58,170 bases of DNA from contig JAUSJA010000037.1 in the NCBI GenBank assembly GCA_030647905.1, positions 76,030 to 134,199 of the forward strand, written 5' to 3'. Positions 7,262-19,729 of this stretch are shown one piece after another. Each line of letters opens with the position of its first letter. Within the stretch, counting starts at the first letter, position 1. The DNA comes from Gemmatimonadaceae bacterium. Its GTDB lineage: Bacteria; Gemmatimonadota; Gemmatimonadetes; Gemmatimonadales; Gemmatimonadaceae. The notes under the pieces are model-generated. The model did not search any database. It was given only the letters and a program-made list of their open reading frames with translations, and was not told the origin of the DNA. The translations under genes were made by a program, and so were the position numbers.

Positions 7262-8724
7262 AGCCAGGAATGAGCCAGTCAACGCAGCTTCGGCAGGAGC
7301 TGAAGATCAATCCCCGTCTTTATCAGGCGATGGATCTTCTCTACATGCCGTTGCTCGATCTGCAGCAGCACCTCAAGCAGGAGTTGCTCAATAATCCCTT
7401 CCTCGACCTGGTGGACGTCGAGGAGGAAGACGAAGATGAGCAGACGGAGCCGGAAGCAGTCGCCGAGACGCCCGAGGAGAAGGAGCGCGGCGAGGAGATA
7501 GACTGGGAGGAGATTCTCCTCGACGGGTTCGACACGGCGGGCGGGCGGCGCGAGGAGCACGAAGAGCGCGAGTACTACGAGCCGGTGACTGTCGCCACGC
7601 GAGACCTGAGCGATCACCTGCGTGACCAGGTCAGCCTCCTCGAGCTGAGTCCCCGCGAGATGCTTCTGGCCGACGAGTTTCTCGGCAACATCAACGATGA
7701 CGGCTACCTCGCTACACCCGTCGAGCAGGTGATCGACTCGGTGAACGAGATGATCGTGCAGGCGGCGGAGACGGAAGACCGCGATCTCGGCGAGCTTCCG
7801 CTGTACACCGTGGAAGAAGGCGAAGCGATGCTCCGCACGGTCCATGAGCTGGACCCGCCGGGCGTCGGCGCGCGCGATCTTCGCGAGTGCCTGATGCTTC
7901 AGCTGAACGACGCAGGACTCACCCAGTCCGTTCCTTACAGGCTGGTACACGACTGCTTCGAGGAGCTCATCGCGCACCGGTGGAGCGAGATCTCCAAGCG
8001 ATTCGGCATCAGCGCGAGCGACGTCCAGAATGCTGCCGACGAGATTGCGAAGCTCGATCCGAAGCCCGGCCTGAGGTTCCGCTCAGGCAACGAGAACTAC
8101 ATTATCCCCGACCTGATCGTGGACAAGATTGACGGCGAGTATCGCATCTTTCTCAATGACGCGAACCTCCCGCGACTTCGGCTCAGCAAGGTATACCAGG
8201 AGATCGCCCGCGACAAGAAAAAGTTCGAAGGCGAGAACAAGGAGTTCATCTCCAGCAAGCTCAACTCGGCAAACTGGATGATCCAGGCGATAGAGCAGCG
8301 ACGCCAGACGATGCTAAAGGTGATGAACTACATCGTTGACAGGCAGCGCGAGTTTTTCGAAAAGGGCGTGCAGTTCCTGAAGCCGCTGACGCTCCGCGAG
8401 GTCGCGGAAGTCATCAACATGCACGAGTCTACCGTGAGCCGCGTGACAAACGAAAAGTTCGTGCAGACTCCGCGCGGCGTGCTTCCTCTCAAGTTTTTCT
8501 TCTCGTCCGGGCTCGCTACGTCCGATGGTGACGACGTCTCCGCGCGGGGCATCAAGGACCAGCTCGAGAAGCTGGTGCAGGAAGAGGATCCAAAGCATCC
8601 GCTCACGGACCAGGCGATCGTGAACATCCTGCGAGAAAGCGGCGTCCAGATCGCGAGACGCACCGTCGCCAAGTACCGCGACCAGCTTGGCGTCCTTTCC
8701 GCGAGGATGCGGAAGCGGATATGA
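7258..8724 (+). CDS. rpoN: RNA polymerase sigma-54 factor
   Basis: Alternative sigma factor that recognises -24/-12 promoters and needs an AAA+ activator. The 488-residue protein has the glutamine/leucine-rich region I (QELKINPRLYQAMDLLYMPLLDLQQHL), an acidic region II (about residues 55-90), the core-binding domain, an HTH (LTLREVAEVINMHESTVSRVTNEKFVQTP) and the C-terminal RpoN box ARRTVAKYRDQLGV. GTG start overlapping the lptB stop. lptB-rpoN adjacency is widespread (lptA-lptB-rpoN in Proteobacteria), which supports the naming of the upstream genes. No hpf or ptsN homologue follows, unlike in E. coli. Confidence 0.97.
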   Translation: MKPGMSQSTQLRQELKINPRLYQAMDLLYMPLLDLQQHLKQELLNNPFLDLVDVEEEDEDEQTEPEAVAETPEEKERGEEIDWEEILLDGFDTAGGRREEHEEREYYEPVTVATRDLSDHLRDQVSLLELSPREMLLADEFLGNINDDGYLATPVEQVIDSVNEMIVQAAETEDRDLGELPLYTVEEGEAMLRTVHELDPPGVGARDLRECLMLQLNDAGLTQSVPYRLVHDCFEELIAHRWSEISKRFGISASDVQNAADEIAKLDPKPGLRFRSGNENYIIPDLIVDKIDGEYRIFLNDANLPRLRLSKVYQEIARDKKKFEGENKEFISSKLNSANWMIQAIEQRRQTMLKVMNYIVDRQREFFEKGVQFLKPLTLREVAEVINMHESTVSRVTNEKFVQTPRGVLPLKFFFSSGLATSDGDDVSARGIKDQLEKLVQEEDPKHPLTDQAIVNILRESGVQIARRTVAKYRDQLGVLSARMRKRI

Positions 8725-15037: not shown

Positions 15038-15876
15038 TGGAATCCAATCGATCTTTTTACAAGATGAGCGGGTCGGGCAACGACTTTGTCTTCTTCGACC
15101 TGAGCGAGGGGCCCGTCGGCCAGCTCGAGTCGGCATCGGCGATCCGGGCCTTGAGCGCGCGCGGAACGGGCGTAGGAGCGGACGGAGTGGTGTTCCTCAA
15201 GCCGGGCGCCGATGATTCATTCACGATGCGCTACTACAACAGTGATGGCTCGCTCGGGGAGCTTTGCGGCAATGCGACTCTCTGTGCCGTGCGTCTGGCC
15301 CATGAGGTCGGCATCGTGCGGGCGGACGAGATATCCATTCAAACCGATGCCGGGATAGTCAGGGGCCGGATGGTGGACGGCCTCCCGGAAATCGACCTGG
15401 CGCCGGTCAGCGAGGTCCGGACCGAGGTTCCAGAGATCGATCGCCTGGCGCGGGAGAGTCTGCTCGGCTTCGCCAGGGTGGGTGTTCCGCACATCGTCAT
15501 TGTGGACGAGGATGCCGAAACGGCGGATATCCTCGGTAGAGGTTCGCGGATCCGGCGCGATCGCTCGCTGAGCGACGGCGCCAACGTGAACTTCCTCACC
15601 CCCAAGCGGGACTGGTGGACGATCCGGACTTACGAGCGGGGTGTCGAGGGCGAGACGCTCGCCTGCGGCACTGGCGCGGTAGCGAGCGCCATCCTGCTGA
15701 CCGAGTGGGGCAGGGCGACTTCTCCAGTGCGCCTGCGGACACGATCCGGGCGCGATCTGGGAGTCCGGGTTCGCCGCGAGGGAGCGCAGTGGTATCCATC
15801 GCTGCGCGGGGGTGCCGACATCGTTTTTTCGGGTCAGATCCGGGATTTGGATCTGACCGTTACCCAGGACCCGTGA
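15037..15876 (+). CDS. dapF: diaminopimelate epimerase
   Basis: Interconverts LL- and meso-diaminopimelate for lysine and peptidoglycan. The 279-residue protein starts at the ATG at 15037, giving FYKMSGSGNDFVFFD at the N terminus. The two catalytic cysteines are in LGELCGNATLCAVRLA and GETLACGTGAVASAI. The open frame upstream belongs to the glycosyltransferase region and is rejected as start. It is the last + strand gene before the dif-like site; the repeat array starts at its stop codon. Confidence 0.97.
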   Translation: MESNRSFYKMSGSGNDFVFFDLSEGPVGQLESASAIRALSARGTGVGADGVVFLKPGADDSFTMRYYNSDGSLGELCGNATLCAVRLAHEVGIVRADEISIQTDAGIVRGRMVDGLPEIDLAPVSEVRTEVPEIDRLARESLLGFARVGVPHIVIVDEDAETADILGRGSRIRRDRSLSDGANVNFLTPKRDWWTIRTYERGVEGETLACGTGAVASAILLTEWGRATSPVRLRTRSGRDLGVRVRREGAQWYPSLRGGADIVFSGQIRDLDLTVTQDP

Positions 15877-15980
15877 CCCGCGACCCGCGACCCGTTACTT
15901 GTGACCCGTTGCCTGTGACCCGTTACCTGTGACCCGTTACCTGTGACCCGTTGGCGGGCAGCGGGTAACGGGTAACGGGA
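15874..15980 (+). repeat. GTTACCC-type short repeat array after dapF
   Basis: Begins at the dapF TGA with three ACCCGCG-like units, then five imperfect 14-base units of the form TGACCCGTTACCTG, then the inverted form GGGTAACGGGTAACGGG. CCCGTTACC near 15930-15940 can pair with GGTAACGGG at 15963-15979, with a smaller stem CCCG-TTGG-CGGG inside, so the array can fold. It could end dapF transcription, but there is no T-run after it. The same G-rich motif recurs at 57303. Confidence 0.8.
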
Positions 15981-16151
15981 ATGGCGACAGTTGATCATCC
16001 GGGCGCTGGCGAAATCAACGCAGTCGGACCGGAAATCGCGAGGAAGTGACGCGCTTTCTAGCTTGGCAGCCTCAAAACCTTCTCATTACAGCACTTAGCG
16101 ACATCCTAACCGGGAAGGACATCCTGTTCTCCACATTTCTCCACCACCAGT
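15981..16151. other. non-coding stretch between repeat array and dif-like site
   Basis: No coding frame, RNA gene or strong promoter is visible. The sequence is less GC-rich than its surroundings and becomes AT-rich toward 16150. Confidence 0.6.
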
Positions 16152-16179
16152 AGTTTACATAACATATATTATACGTTGT
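16152..16179 (-). other. dif: candidate dif site (XerC/XerD chromosome dimer resolution)
   Basis: On + it reads AGTTTACATAA, central CATATA, then TTATACGTTGT: two 11-base arms with the ATAA-N6-TTAT core typical of dif sites. Read on the - strand, the XerD-side arm TTATGTAAACT is, from memory of the published site, identical to that of Bacillus subtilis dif, and about 23 of 28 positions agree overall. It is an AT-rich island in a GC-rich window. All genes to its left are on + and all to its right on -, as expected where replication forks meet. Not tested against a whole-genome skew plot. Confidence 0.75.
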
Positions 16180-16232: not shown

Positions 16233-16889
16233 TCAGGACTTGGGCTCTACAGCAGCGGTTAGTTCGCCGAGGCGTACACGCGCCTCGCCCGCCACAGTAC
16301 CCTTCGAGTCGGCGCCCAATACGGTCCAGATCTCCTTCGCCTTCGCCTTGTTACCGCCCGTCAGATACGCCCGCGCAGCCAGGCTCTCGTACCGCTGGCG
16401 GTCGGAATCGAACCGCGCGACCTTGGCTGCCTTCTCATATTGTTCGCCCGCTTCGCCGTATTTGTTGAGCTGCTCGAGCCCGCCCGCAAGGACGATATGT
16501 ACTGATGATCCAAGCTCCTTCGAGCCCCCGATCTGATCCTCTGCTTTCCGGAGCTCGGCCACGCCTTGCTCAAATTTGCCCTGGTCGTACATGATCTGAG
16601 CGAGAACCAGCCGGCCCTCCATCGCCGCCGTCGTGCCATCGTACCGGCTCACCATCTTCCTCAGATCGGACTCCGCCAGCGGCAGATTCCCGACGACTAC
16701 CGACCGCTGGGCGGCGAAATATGCCTTTTCGGCACGTTCGGATTTCAACTCCTGCGACCTGTTGTAGAACCATCCGCCGGCGGCGAGGGCAACGACCGCC
16801 AAGCCGCCCCAGGCCACCTGCCTGCTGTGAAGCTGGAACCAGTCCATAAAGGATTCGGAACGCTCTGAGGTCGAGAAAGACGATGTCAT
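16233..16889 (-). CDS. YfgM-like membrane-anchored TPR protein
   Basis: A 218-residue protein with a single transmembrane helix near residues 27-45 (VAWGGLAVVALAAGGWFY) preceded by a cytoplasmic SESFMDWFQLHSRQ segment, then a helical TPR-like region (LAESDLRKMVSRYDGTTAAMEGRLVLAQIMYDQGKFEQGVAELRKA). This is the layout of the YfgM/TPR_21 family, which in E. coli associates with SecYEG and periplasmic chaperones. The ATG at 16889 is chosen; the longer frame would run into the tRNA. It stands alone next to tRNA-Arg. Confidence 0.75.
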   Translation of the reverse strand: MTSSFSTSERSESFMDWFQLHSRQVAWGGLAVVALAAGGWFYNRSQELKSERAEKAYFAAQRSVVVGNLPLAESDLRKMVSRYDGTTAAMEGRLVLAQIMYDQGKFEQGVAELRKAEDQIGGSKELGSSVHIVLAGGLEQLNKYGEAGEQYEKAAKVARFDSDRQRYESLAARAYLTGGNKAKAKEIWTVLGADSKGTVAGEARVRLGELTAAVEPKS

Positions 16890-16914
16890 GTCGTGGATGA
16901 GGTGAAGGTTGTGA

Positions 16915-16988
16915 TGCCCCCGGGGTGACTCGAACACCCGGCCAACGGTTTAGGAAACCGCTGCTCTATCCACCTGAGCTACGGGGGC
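16915..16988 (-). tRNA. tRNA-Arg (anticodon CCU)
   Basis: Folds as a full cloverleaf of 74 nt: acceptor GCCCCCG / CGGGGGC with discriminator A, D arm GCTC..GAGC, anticodon stem GCGGT / ACCGT with loop TTCCTAA (anticodon CCT), and T arm GGGTG-TTCGAGT-CACCC. No 3' CCA is encoded. A recombinase remnant lies 23 bases from its 5' end, so this tRNA may have served as an integration site. Confidence 0.95.
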
Positions 16989-17011
16989 AACGTTGATTTA
17001 TAACGACTTAG

Positions 17012-17215
17012 CTAACTCACCTGCTCTGCTTCTACCTCTTTCTTTGCCGTTACTTTGCCGTTGAAGCGTCGAGCGACGGCGCGTGAGAGGTCGCTTGAGT
17101 CGATGATATTGTATCTGTCGAACATATCGCGGGTCTTCCAGCCGCACAACTTAATGATCTCCCCTTCGCTCACGCCCAACTCGCGGATGAACCGGCGCGA
17201 CACAATCGAGCGTGC
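17012..17215 (-). pseudogene. tyrosine recombinase (phage-type integrase) C-terminal remnant
   Basis: About 65 residues remain, including RRFIRELGVSEGEIIKLCGW followed by KTRDMFDRYNI, the end of the catalytic domain of tyrosine integrases with the nucleophile Tyr in FDRYNI. The upstream side should carry the HxLR box; only a degraded version (HQAFGLARS) is present, and no arm-binding or N-terminal catalytic part exists. The stop at 17012 looks natural. The 5' side runs straight into an IS256 transposase fragment in another frame. Non-functional remnant of an integrated element beside tRNA-Arg. Confidence 0.8.
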
Positions 17216-17220
17216 AAGGC

Positions 17221-17316
17221 CAAAGGCTTGGTGCGGAGCCGGACAGCTGCAAGGAGCGACTCGATGATGTTGATCGTTCGTAAGTGCTTCCAGTGCTCTT
17301 TCGGAAAGCCGAAGCT
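17221..17316 (-). pseudogene. IS256-family (Mutator-type) transposase fragment
   Basis: Translating the - strand here gives GFPKEHWKHLRTINIIES followed by LLAAVRLRTK, the conserved C-terminal signature of IS256-family transposases. Only about 32 residues survive, with no start, no DDE residues and no visible terminal inverted repeats. The 3' side is cut where the integrase remnant begins (about 17215), and the 5' side stops just before the DUF362 gene. It is too short to be found as a long open frame. Confidence 0.8.
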
Positions 17317-17332
17317 GCGACCGACGGGTGAC

Positions 17333-18331
17333 TTACCCCTGCGCAAGGATCGCTGTCAACGCGTCGGCGACAGCCTTGCTCTCTGCATCACCGGTAACGA
17401 TGTCAATCGCGTCGGCGCTGAGGACGCCGAGCTTGAGGTCCACCGCGCGGGCGATCTGTTCCTGCGCGAAGATCTTGCGGCTCATGATGGCCTGATTCGC
17501 ACCAAGCGACTTGAGCATCGCGAGCCCGACGGCGTCGACCGCGACGCGATCGTCGCCTGCGATCATCACGTTGCCCGCCTTCAGTTCACCGCGCGAAGGT
17601 CCGCCGTCGGTGAACGCCGCTACGCCATCGAGCACGATGAGATCTGGTTTGTAGCCAGTGTTGAGCTCCGCGATCATCCGGCGCATGTCGGGCGAGGCGT
17701 GCATGACCCTTCGAATCGACTTTGGCGTCAGTCCCACCGAGAGCTTGAGCGACATGGTGAACACGCCGCCGAATCCGTGCGTCTTCAGGCAGCACGTCGA
17801 CACATTGTACTCGGCGTCCACCACCAGGCGGGGCAGCGTAAACCCCTTGGGCCAGTGCGTGCCGGCAGCCGGGAACGTCACCCAGTCCTTCTCGGTGATC
17901 TGTTCGAAGTCCACCACGTCGAAACGGAAGTCCCTGGCCAGGTCGAACGTTCCCTTCTTTTCCATCACGCTGCGGGTCTGCGGCGGCCCGCTCGACTCGC
18001 CCAACGTGACGCGGCGCGCATTCAACCCATGCAACTCAGTGACGAGCTGAGAGAGTGTATCGTTGTGGGTCGACCCCGGCGCATCGTCCGCCGAGTTGAA
18101 GTTCGGCTTGATGACGACCTGTTTGCCCTTGACGGCGGTGAGATCCAGCAGCTTGAGCGCAGCGGCGACGCCGCGCTTTCGATCACCGGTCCTGACCAAG
18201 GCGACCCGGGTCCGGCGTGGCCCCACCACTTGCGCCAGCCCCGACATGCCAAGTGCCGGCATCAGTGCCATGCCTGCAGTCACCACGCGGATGAAGTCGC
18301 GACGATCGAGGTCACGAGCGGGCCGAACCAT
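17333..18331 (-). CDS. Tat-exported DUF362 domain protein
   Basis: A 332-residue protein. The ATG at 18331 has a strong ribosome site (GGAGG five bases upstream) and opens a twin-arginine signal (Arg10-Arg11 in DLDRRDFIRVV, then a hydrophobic stretch), so it is probably exported folded. The body carries DUF362 features: VVIKPNFNSAD, SLKLSVGLTPK, LIVLDGVAAFTDGGPSRGELK and a conserved ending DAVGLAMLKSLG. The biochemical role of DUF362 is not established; some members bind iron-sulphur clusters, but I see no classic ferredoxin CxxCxxC here. It is flanked by mobile remnants on its 3' side and could be part of transferred DNA, though its base use resembles the neighbours. Confidence 0.82.
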   Translation of the reverse strand: MVRPARDLDRRDFIRVVTAGMALMPALGMSGLAQVVGPRRTRVALVRTGDRKRGVAAALKLLDLTAVKGKQVVIKPNFNSADDAPGSTHNDTLSQLVTELHGLNARRVTLGESSGPPQTRSVMEKKGTFDLARDFRFDVVDFEQITEKDWVTFPAAGTHWPKGFTLPRLVVDAEYNVSTCCLKTHGFGGVFTMSLKLSVGLTPKSIRRVMHASPDMRRMIAELNTGYKPDLIVLDGVAAFTDGGPSRGELKAGNVMIAGDDRVAVDAVGLAMLKSLGANQAIMSRKIFAQEQIARAVDLKLGVLSADAIDIVTGDAESKAVADALTAILAQG

Positions 18332-18441
18332 GTGTCCTCCCAGGTGAAGGCAGCAGGCCTGCCGCATGACAGGAACCGCTCGACGATCTCGGGGGCGTAG
18401 GGCTATCAAGCCAATTTAACAGAGCGCCACAACTTCCACTA

Positions 18442-18714
18442 CTACTTACGCATGGCGAACGGAAACTCGAGCACTTCCCCAACCAGATCGAGGTCGGTCA
18501 CTTCCGTCACAACCGCGCCGTCCGGCCCCTTCCGCAGGACCCGCCGAAGCTCGTCAAGTTTCTCTTCGCTCCCCGAGGCGGCTATCTCGACAGTGCCGTC
18601 GCTCATGTTCCTGACCCAGCCCGCAAGCTGCAGCCGGCGGCCGGCCATACGGACGAACCACCTGAACCCAACCCCCTGAACTTTCCCGGACACCTGCAAA
18701 TGCACGTCGGCCAT
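18442..18714 (-). CDS. acyP: acylphosphatase
   Basis: Small enzyme (90 residues) that hydrolyses acyl phosphates. It shows the family signature VSGKVQGVGFRWFVRMAGRR with catalytic Arg18, followed by LAGWVRNMSDGTVEI with the catalytic Asn36. The ATG at 18714 is chosen because it starts directly at the conserved first strand and lies five bases after the upstream stop; a longer frame overlaps that gene. It is the last gene of a long overlapping run that begins at 25753. Confidence 0.95.
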   Translation of the reverse strand: MADVHLQVSGKVQGVGFRWFVRMAGRRLQLAGWVRNMSDGTVEIAASGSEEKLDELRRVLRKGPDGAVVTEVTDLDLVGEVLEFPFAMRK

Positions 18715-18719
18715 GCGGG

Positions 18720-19061
18720 TCAGCGGCGCATTCTCAGCAGCGTCGCCAAGCCCTGCCAGTCGTACGACTGCCACTCCGATACCGCCCAGCCCTCGGCGTC
18801 TTCCTCGGGATGCTCTGACCCGTATTCCGGCTCATTGACGACCCGATAGTCCGGCTCCGCCTCGCGAACCACGGAGTTCGCGATGGCGCCGGTGTCCAGT
18901 CCGAAGTCGTCAATTGATGGCAGCTCGTCGAGGAACTGCTCGATCGGCGGAAGATCATCGTCAGCCAGGGCGGCGCCGTACTCGCGCGACGCAGTCCCCA
19001 GCCCGGAAAATGGCGGGAACCGCGGGACTGTCGGCGGACTGTGAATTCCCGCTTCGCTCAC
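18720..19061 (-). CDS. small acidic hypothetical protein
   Basis: A 113-residue protein that I do not recognise. It is strongly acidic, rich in Asp, Glu and Pro, with DDDLPPIEQFLDELPSIDDFG in the first half and WAVSEWQSYDWQGLATLL near the end, which suggests a mostly disordered chain with short helices. GTG start after GAGG, six bases after the pcm stop; its end is five bases before acyP. Translational coupling between two recognised genes supports that it is real. It might be a regulator or partner of the protein-repair enzymes, but that is a guess from position only. Confidence 0.7.
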   Translation of the reverse strand: MSEAGIHSPPTVPRFPPFSGLGTASREYGAALADDDLPPIEQFLDELPSIDDFGLDTGAIANSVVREAEPDYRVVNEPEYGSEHPEEDAEGWAVSEWQSYDWQGLATLLRMRR

Positions 19062-19066
19062 TTGCC

Positions 19067-19729
19067 TCAGGCCTCCCAGCTATGCTTGCCCAGAAGCGGC
19101 ACAAATCGTACTGGCGCAATATCCTGCCGCTCCAGCTCACCATCTCTCCGGGTGAAGAGATGCAGAATCTGCTCGTCCCTGTCGCCGAGTGGAATCAGCA
19201 GCCGCCCGTTCTCCGCCAGCTGTTCGATGTACGCGGCCGGCACGTCAGGTGCCGCCGCCCCAACGAGAATCGCGTCGAACGGCGCGAACTGGCGCCATCC
19301 GAGCGTCCCATCACCCAGCATGAAGGAAATGTTGTTCGCTCCCATCTGCTTTAGGACTTCCCTGGCCTTCTCGAGCAACGGCGCGATCCGCTCGATGCTG
19401 AACACCTGGGAGGCAAGCCTCGACAGGAGGGCAGTCTGGTAGCCCGATCCGGTTCCGATCTCGAGGACTTTCTCGTTTCCCGTCAGCTTGAGGAGCTCGA
19501 GGTAGCGGGCGTGGATGGACGGCTGGGAGATTGTCTGCTGGTTGCCGATCGGCAGCGCGGAATCCTCGTAGGCACGGTGCCTTACGCCAGTCGGAACGAA
19601 AAGGTGGCGAGGCGTCGCATCGATCGCGTGAAGGACGCAGAGATCGCGGATCCCCTGCTCCTGCAGCGTCTCGACCAGGCGCCTGCGCGCGCCCCGGTAC
19701 TCCTGCGGATCTACTGGTCCCGCCACCAT
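19067..19729 (-). CDS. pcm: protein-L-isoaspartate O-methyltransferase
   Basis: Repairs isoaspartyl residues in aged proteins using S-adenosylmethionine. The 220-residue protein has HLFVPTGVRHRAYEDSALPI, GNQQTISQPSIHARYLELL, the SAM-binding VLEIGTGSGYQTALLSRL and the later FDAILVGAAAPDVP, all typical. The ATG at 19729 gives the usual length and overlaps surE by 19 bases. surE-pcm adjacency is conserved in Proteobacteria, and supports both calls. Confidence 0.95.
   Translation of the reverse strand: MVAGPVDPQEYRGARRRLVETLQEQGIRDLCVLHAIDATPRHLFVPTGVRHRAYEDSALPIGNQQTISQPSIHARYLELLKLTGNEKVLEIGTGSGYQTALLSRLASQVFSIERIAPLLEKAREVLKQMGANNISFMLGDGTLGWRQFAPFDAILVGAAAPDVPAAYIEQLAENGRLLIPLGDRDEQILHLFTRRDGELERQDIAPVRFVPLLGKHSWEA

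Follow-up and report, generated by a model that had tools for sequence, protein, structure and literature searches.

Probable fossil end of a reversed-orientation integrative element at tRNA-Arg(CCU), beside dif, in a Gemmatimonadaceae genome

The window analysed here, meaning the whole 58-kb stretch of contig 37 from the 3.1-Mb draft genome of a Gemmatimonadaceae bacterium, carries a tRNA-Arg(CCU) gene (anticodon CCT) at 16913-16989 on the minus strand, as detected by ARAGORN and by Rfam (RF00005, 64.7 bits) and marked as an attachment target by junction comparison. The gene is single in the genome, the other DNA matches, among the matches listed, being only 76% and 72% identical. Going upstream of it on the minus strand, a spacer of ~23 bp is followed by an integrase tail, a piece of an IS256-type transposase gene, a DUF362 gene and acyP, and both pieces of mobile genes thus sit on the 5' side of the tRNA. 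On its other side, a TPR gene directly follows. The minus-strand gene at 18442-18774, which we take to be acyP (acylphosphatase-like), adjoins the tRNA in relatives and is its native right-hand neighbour.

The remnant nearest to the tRNA is the C-terminal end of a tyrosine integrase (17012 to ~17206, minus strand), assigned from tblastn matches, DNA homology and a tree. The minus-strand frame ending at 17012 reads ...RRFIRELGVSEGEIIKLCGWKTRDMFDRYNIIDSSDLSRAVARRFNGK...QVS*, contains the motif FDRYNI, and lies on the same strand as the tRNA with a gap of 23 bp to its 5' end. The initial annotation had extended the remnant to 17215; the remnant is real, and its protein similarity is clear only to ~17206. 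The tail shares 56% identity with residues 309-365 at the C-terminus of an intact integrase from the same-genus genome G013 (tblastn, E 2e-12). Its C-terminal motif GWKTRDMFDRYNI aligns with those of related integrases, as in a tyrosine recombinase, and the tyrosine in this motif is presumably the catalytic one (PF00589), while a Pfam search of the tail gave no integrase match. The DNA of the tail and the spacer matches six integrase or element-end loci (L036, L039, L040, L076, L077 and L080), which jointly cover 17176-16990. In a small FastTree tree, to which the short tail contributes ~60 residues, it groups with L080, L077 and L076 with a support of 1.000. Among the matches listed for the window's genome are six PF00589 loci, none of which has a tRNA within its 3-kb locus.

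The spacer, CTAAGTCGTTATAAATCAACGTT (16989-17011, minus strand), was delimited by aligning the site with those of G013 and G015 and with the empty sites described below. It differs from the G013 spacer at 2 of 23 positions, is similar in the G015 element copies, and is unlike the upstream DNA of the empty sites. Read jointly with the nucleotides surrounding the int stop codon, it yields the motif TTAGCTAAGTyGTT.

The IS256-type piece is an internal remnant of 86 bp (17229-17314, minus strand) in a different frame from the integrase tail, as the initial annotation had proposed. It is identified by Pfam, by protein matches and by DNA homology spanning 17314-17229, and nothing of a full-length transposase gene beyond these 86 bp is found in the window. 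About 29 residues are shared with Transposase_mut (PF00872; profile positions 322-350, E 0.019, 14.3 bits, below the cut-off of 21) and, unlike a full transposase, the piece is cut at both ends of the gene. A search of 394 genomes gave matches in 25 other genomes, sharing 48-69% identity across 26-31 residues (E from 4e-10); several of these matches fall in open frames of 428-447 codons. The two broken genes had been thought to meet almost exactly at 17215-17221; the junction is less exact than that, with ~22 unassigned bases between the end of clear integrase similarity and the start of IS similarity. An insertion or a deletion, as the initial annotation proposed, may have joined them, and its interpretation is on the whole partly supported. 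The description of the locus as a graveyard of mobile genes fared better, both genes being broken and no other match to the integrase tail or to the IS256 family being found in the draft genome.

A frame of 106 codons stays open throughout 17332-17012, and could be taken for a real short gene born of the fusion. We regard this as extremely unlikely, as the IS part is homologous in another frame, the corresponding tail in G015 is altered by gaps, and no match across the fusion was found among the matches listed in other genomes. The initial annotation had itself named a fused segment conserved as one gene as the finding that would count against it; such a gene is disfavoured, with no cross-fusion match among the matches listed for 60 relatives (best four candidates per genome scored) and for 394 genomes.

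The DUF362 gene (17333-18409, minus strand; PF04015, E 7e-39) is intact and is missing from the tRNA-acyP interval in relatives. Its homologues, at 51-86% protein identity, are scattered over Gemmatimonadota- and Acidobacteria-titled MAGs, and six Acidobacteria-titled MAG loci stand at 51-77% (five of them at 71-77%), a pattern that suggests transfer between phyla. Such patchiness, and the fact that three inserted pieces lie end to end, would also suit a reading in which a single transfer or rearrangement brought in the integrase tail and the IS piece, as unrelated debris, together with the DUF362 gene and left them near the tRNA by chance. We think this highly improbable: the gap between tail and tRNA (23 bp) is like those in G013 (23), G091 (22) and G192 (24), the spacer sequence is conserved, and there is no tRNA gene in nine DUF362 loci scanned (3.8-17 kb each). 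The same scan leaves unsupported the idea that DUF362 genes are typical cargo of these elements.

A dif site of 28 bp lies at 16152-16179 on the minus strand, identified from the recurrence of a 21-mer, a switch in GC skew and XerD on the contig; its limits were set from what we take to be the layout of E. coli dif. The search took in only those loci of relatives that have the interval from dapF to the TPR gene, and in all 16 of them this interval contains the dif-like 21-mer, with no mismatch in five loci, one in two, two in four, three in four and five in one, the last being weak if taken alone. Cumulative GC skew, computed on the 58-kb window only, peaks at 15-16 kb. XerD scores above its NCBIfam cut-off, and its gene shares the contig with dif at a distance of ~18 kb; an XerC-like protein on contig 17 scores just under its own cut-off (327.6 against 335.15). 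The dif-like site that the initial annotation had seen within 1 kb is therefore real, and its view of the locus as an integration hotspot at the terminus is supported, because 0.75 kb separates the tRNA site from a dif that is conserved and coincides with the local switch in skew. Just after dapF, ~170 bp from dif, short repeats GACCCGTTACCTGT followed by the reverse GGTAACGGGTAACGGG were noticed by eye at 15868-15990.

The site was compared across 18 same-genus genomes, of which 15 loci were read; G008, G010 and G016 were left out, having no close match to tRNA-Arg(CCU). Nine of the 15 loci (G001-G006, G009, G011 and G012) hold an empty site with the order TPR gene, tRNA, acyP; in all nine the TPR gene is at most 0.6 kb from the tRNA, and the matches to tRNA and acyP are ~60-215 bp apart, compared to ~1.45 kb in the window. 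Integrase DNA is present on the 5' side of the tRNA in the window, in G013 and in G015. Three element ends at tRNA-Arg(CCU) in G013 and an array of elements of ~15 kb in G015 bear out the hotspot claim. G014 carries an insert of ~4.7 kb on the 3' side of the tRNA; in this insert (L043, G014:C199, 299-5106), frames resembling a gamma-glutamyltransferase and a TonB-dependent receptor, and no integrase, were noticed by eye. The contigs of G007 and G017 break inside the tRNA and that of G018 stops before acyP, and none of these was scored as empty or filled. The start of G007:C377 and the end of G017:C173 both fall inside the tRNA, as would happen if the assembly had failed to resolve an array with repeats of a tRNA half. 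In G018, other DNA without an integrase tail lies upstream of the tRNA (at 5257 in L044); its end, GTTGTTGTGGTACAACTTC, strongly resembles the element ends of G015, and it is possibly a small scar.

Alignment of the filled sites showed that each reads from the int stop codon through a short spacer with TTAGCTAAGTyGTT or a variant into the tRNA 5' half, up to ...TTTCCTAAACC. This 5' half is followed by the host 3' half in the window, in G013:C52 and in G015, and by AAACCCGCC and a hairpin-like stretch, the other element end, in three places in G015 and two in G013. A pattern search of 179 family genomes found the junction of 5' half and AAACCCGCC only in G013 and G015, in these five places, and a backward control pattern gave 0 matches. 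From these five half copies, positions 16947-16988 (minus strand) correspond to the segment of the tRNA that attP appears to carry in this element family. The partial tRNA copies in G015 comprise bases 33-75 (one 3' half) and bases 1-42, 1-42 and 4-42 (three 5' halves). Of these half copies, the one at 13314 in L036 is without the spacer motif. The outermost 5' half, at 19262, is preceded by DNA of the host type and carries changes in its first bases, in line with its having fallen out of use. The BLAST ends of the partial copies delimit a segment in the anticodon loop (16947-16956, minus strand) that the 5' halves and the 3' half displaced in G015 have in common, and that is likely the strand-exchange region. 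One usual 3'-half element and several mirrored ones thus seem to share a single anticodon-loop crossover region in G015.

Duplicated 5' halves were found in the relatives G013, G015, G162 and G043. The initial annotation had suggested a search for duplicated tRNA 3' ends; duplicated ends do occur in relatives, and those beside this integrase type are 5' halves, so that the element belongs to the rarer reversed type. The window contains no second tRNA half, further similarity to the tRNA reaching at most 12 exact bases or 14 of 15. It thus offers no att pair of its own, which weighs against the reversed-element reading given below, and, lacking a duplicated 5' half, the locus is called a remnant of a 5'-half-targeting element and not such an element itself.

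We consider it highly probable (roughly 87%) that the segment is the fossil right end of a phage-satellite-like integrative element, inserted in reversed orientation into tRNA-Arg(CCU). The attP of this element would have carried the first ~42 bases of the tRNA gene, as far as the anticodon loop, just downstream of int. Recombination in the anticodon loop would have regenerated a complete tRNA, with int and the element-borne 5' half now linked to the 3' half of the host, and would have moved the host's own 5' half and upstream DNA to the far end of the element. Later deletions and an IS256-type insertion may then have stripped away the element body together with the att half at the far end, so that what remains is ~200 bp of int, an 86-bp IS piece and the DUF362 gene. 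The remnants and their position in the window were observed, as were the 5'-half junctions and duplications in relatives; we infer that the window locus went through the same steps as the relatives, and likewise the order and kind of the decay events. These decay steps cannot be ordered from comparison, because the same fossil was seen in no other genome compared. The invading element appears to have supplied part of the tRNA-Arg(CCU) gene as well as the DNA upstream of it, and the tRNA of the window is best read as a chimera of an element 5' half with its upstream DNA and a host 3' half.

Because G015 and G014 carry copies of the 3' half on the TPR side, islands of the usual 3'-half kind seem to use tRNA-Arg(CCU) too, and one of these might once have stood on the other side of the tRNA and owned the integrase. 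This is very unlikely for the window, where the TPR gene comes directly after the tRNA, the integrase is on the 5' side with a 5'-type spacer, and no copy of the 3' half is found, the TPR side included.

The reversed-element reading is in keeping with the behaviour of the wider integrase family. The intact G013 integrase (371 aa; phrog_1 E 2e-41, PF00589 45 bits) ends 23 bp from tRNA-Arg(CCU), and matches to it occur in 6 of 179 family genomes (E up to 1e-20) and 17 of 394 class genomes (E up to 1e-30), G013 being included in both counts; no match was found in IMG/VR viral contigs. Among 20 integrase loci, the query's own included, seven have a tRNA 5' end 22-67 bp after int, the tRNAs being Arg, Arg, Ser, Lys, Lys, Lys and one CAU tRNA, and seven have a tRNA 3' end within 116 bp. 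The remaining six stand outside this count, five (L097, L099, L101, L104 and L107) having no tRNA at the 3' end and one (L108) having it 919 bp away. Duplicated 5' halves on the same contig accompany three of the seven 5'-facing loci (38, 42 and 40 bp, all tRNA-Lys), and duplicated 3' halves two of the seven 3'-facing ones. No second half was found for the other nine, searched over 59 kb in G192 and over stretches of 4-20 kb, several cut by contig ends, in the rest; for the G013 tRNA-Arg, half copies lie on other contigs. Weaker partial tRNA matches were seen in G162 (26/30 bases, 30-59) and G222 (23/25, 18-42, and 15, 59-73). In the FastTree tree, the window tail with L080, L077 and L076 forms one 5'-facing clade, L078, L083 and L082 form a second (support 1.000), and L105 is a third, isolated 5'-facing case. 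The facing therefore splits within one related integrase group, and both kinds duplicate halves that end at the anticodon loop.

In G013:C52 the integrase is accompanied by an HTH regulator, a primase-like gene and a weak AAA match that falls below the Pfam cut-off. G013:C131 combines a second integrase C-terminus with an AAA gene and a small terminase subunit, and among the genes of the G015 array are those for an Eco57I-type methylase and a Schlafen AlbA_2 protein. Judged by gene content, the G013 and G015 elements are putatively phage-satellite-like. Compared to the layout of a PICI (phage-inducible chromosomal island), PICI-type genes are partly present in the G013 contigs: the relatives' elements likewise have an integrase, an HTH regulator and a primase-like gene, and one G013 contig has a small terminase subunit. 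The window, by comparison, keeps only the integrase tail, with no PICI repressor, primase or packaging genes between the tRNA and acyP.

Integration into the 5' half of a tRNA is a known mechanism, and the window represents an uncommon but known type of element. Targeting of the 5' part of tRNAs by integrative elements is in print (Zhao and Williams 2002, as cited in a passage of PMC6563490), and in Sinorhizobium meliloti, according to an excerpt of PMC11476347, 9 of 88 tRNA-integrated sequences have the att segment at the tRNA 5' end. In the passages of both sources, as in our relatives, a 5' tRNA segment is duplicated and the tRNA stays whole; the window differs in being a decayed remnant, in a Gemmatimonadaceae genome, at a tRNA-Arg(CCU) beside dif. 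Islands associated with dusA, as an excerpt of PMC4482086 describes them, likewise replace the 5' end of their target gene with their own sequence, but that target is a protein gene. The usual 3'-half islands and prophages, which Islander finds by tRNA fragments (excerpt of PMC4383910), likewise place a tyrosine integrase beside a regenerated tRNA gene and can form tandem arrays; in contrast, the attachment segment of the window is the mirror image, with the integrase beside the tRNA 5' end. Among the matches listed, insertion into a 5' end brought up one Streptococcus paper (PMC4701971), and the one paper naming Gemmatimonadota (PMC11271474) has one mention each of integrase and prophage; none of the matches listed concerns such elements at tRNA-Arg(CCU) in this lineage, and none has promoter wording for such elements.

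The locus shows in readable form how an element that rebuilds the 5' half of its tRNA gene decays and, for annotation, singles out the tRNA-Arg(CCU) beside dif as a hotspot for islands in this lineage. Since a reversed element substitutes its own sequence for the 5' half and upstream region of a tRNA gene that is single-copy here, the host might now depend on the element end to transcribe tRNA-Arg(CCU). Such promoter capture would explain the retention of this element end at all three decayed loci, namely those of the window, of G192 and of the whole tRNA copy in G015; the integrase tail would then be the part that cannot be lost, and such islands would bind the host to their last few hundred bases. 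We regard it as possible but doubtful: a sigma-70 scan of 16850-17450 found no promoter-like site, which speaks against it. The motif TTAGCTAAGTyGTT was also considered as a tRNA promoter and is unsupported in that role; similar motifs, noticed by eye, adjoin tRNA 3' ends in some 3'-facing elements, and the motif therefore fits an integrase-binding arm better.

Two further loci resemble that of the window. In G192, which belongs to another genus, an integrase matching only query residues 229-352 lies beside tRNA-Arg(CCU) (L084, G192:C2, ~15600-16135), and 59 kb contain no second tRNA half, the best being a 17-base match at 94%; this is apparently a second decayed case. In L041 (G034:C34, ~7821-7870), where no significant integrase match was found nearby and no second tRNA half was found, a different tRNA gene (anticodon CAT) is preceded at ~18 bp by AGTTAGCTAAGTCGTTATAAAT, the motif of the element end, and this is perhaps another fossil of the same element family.
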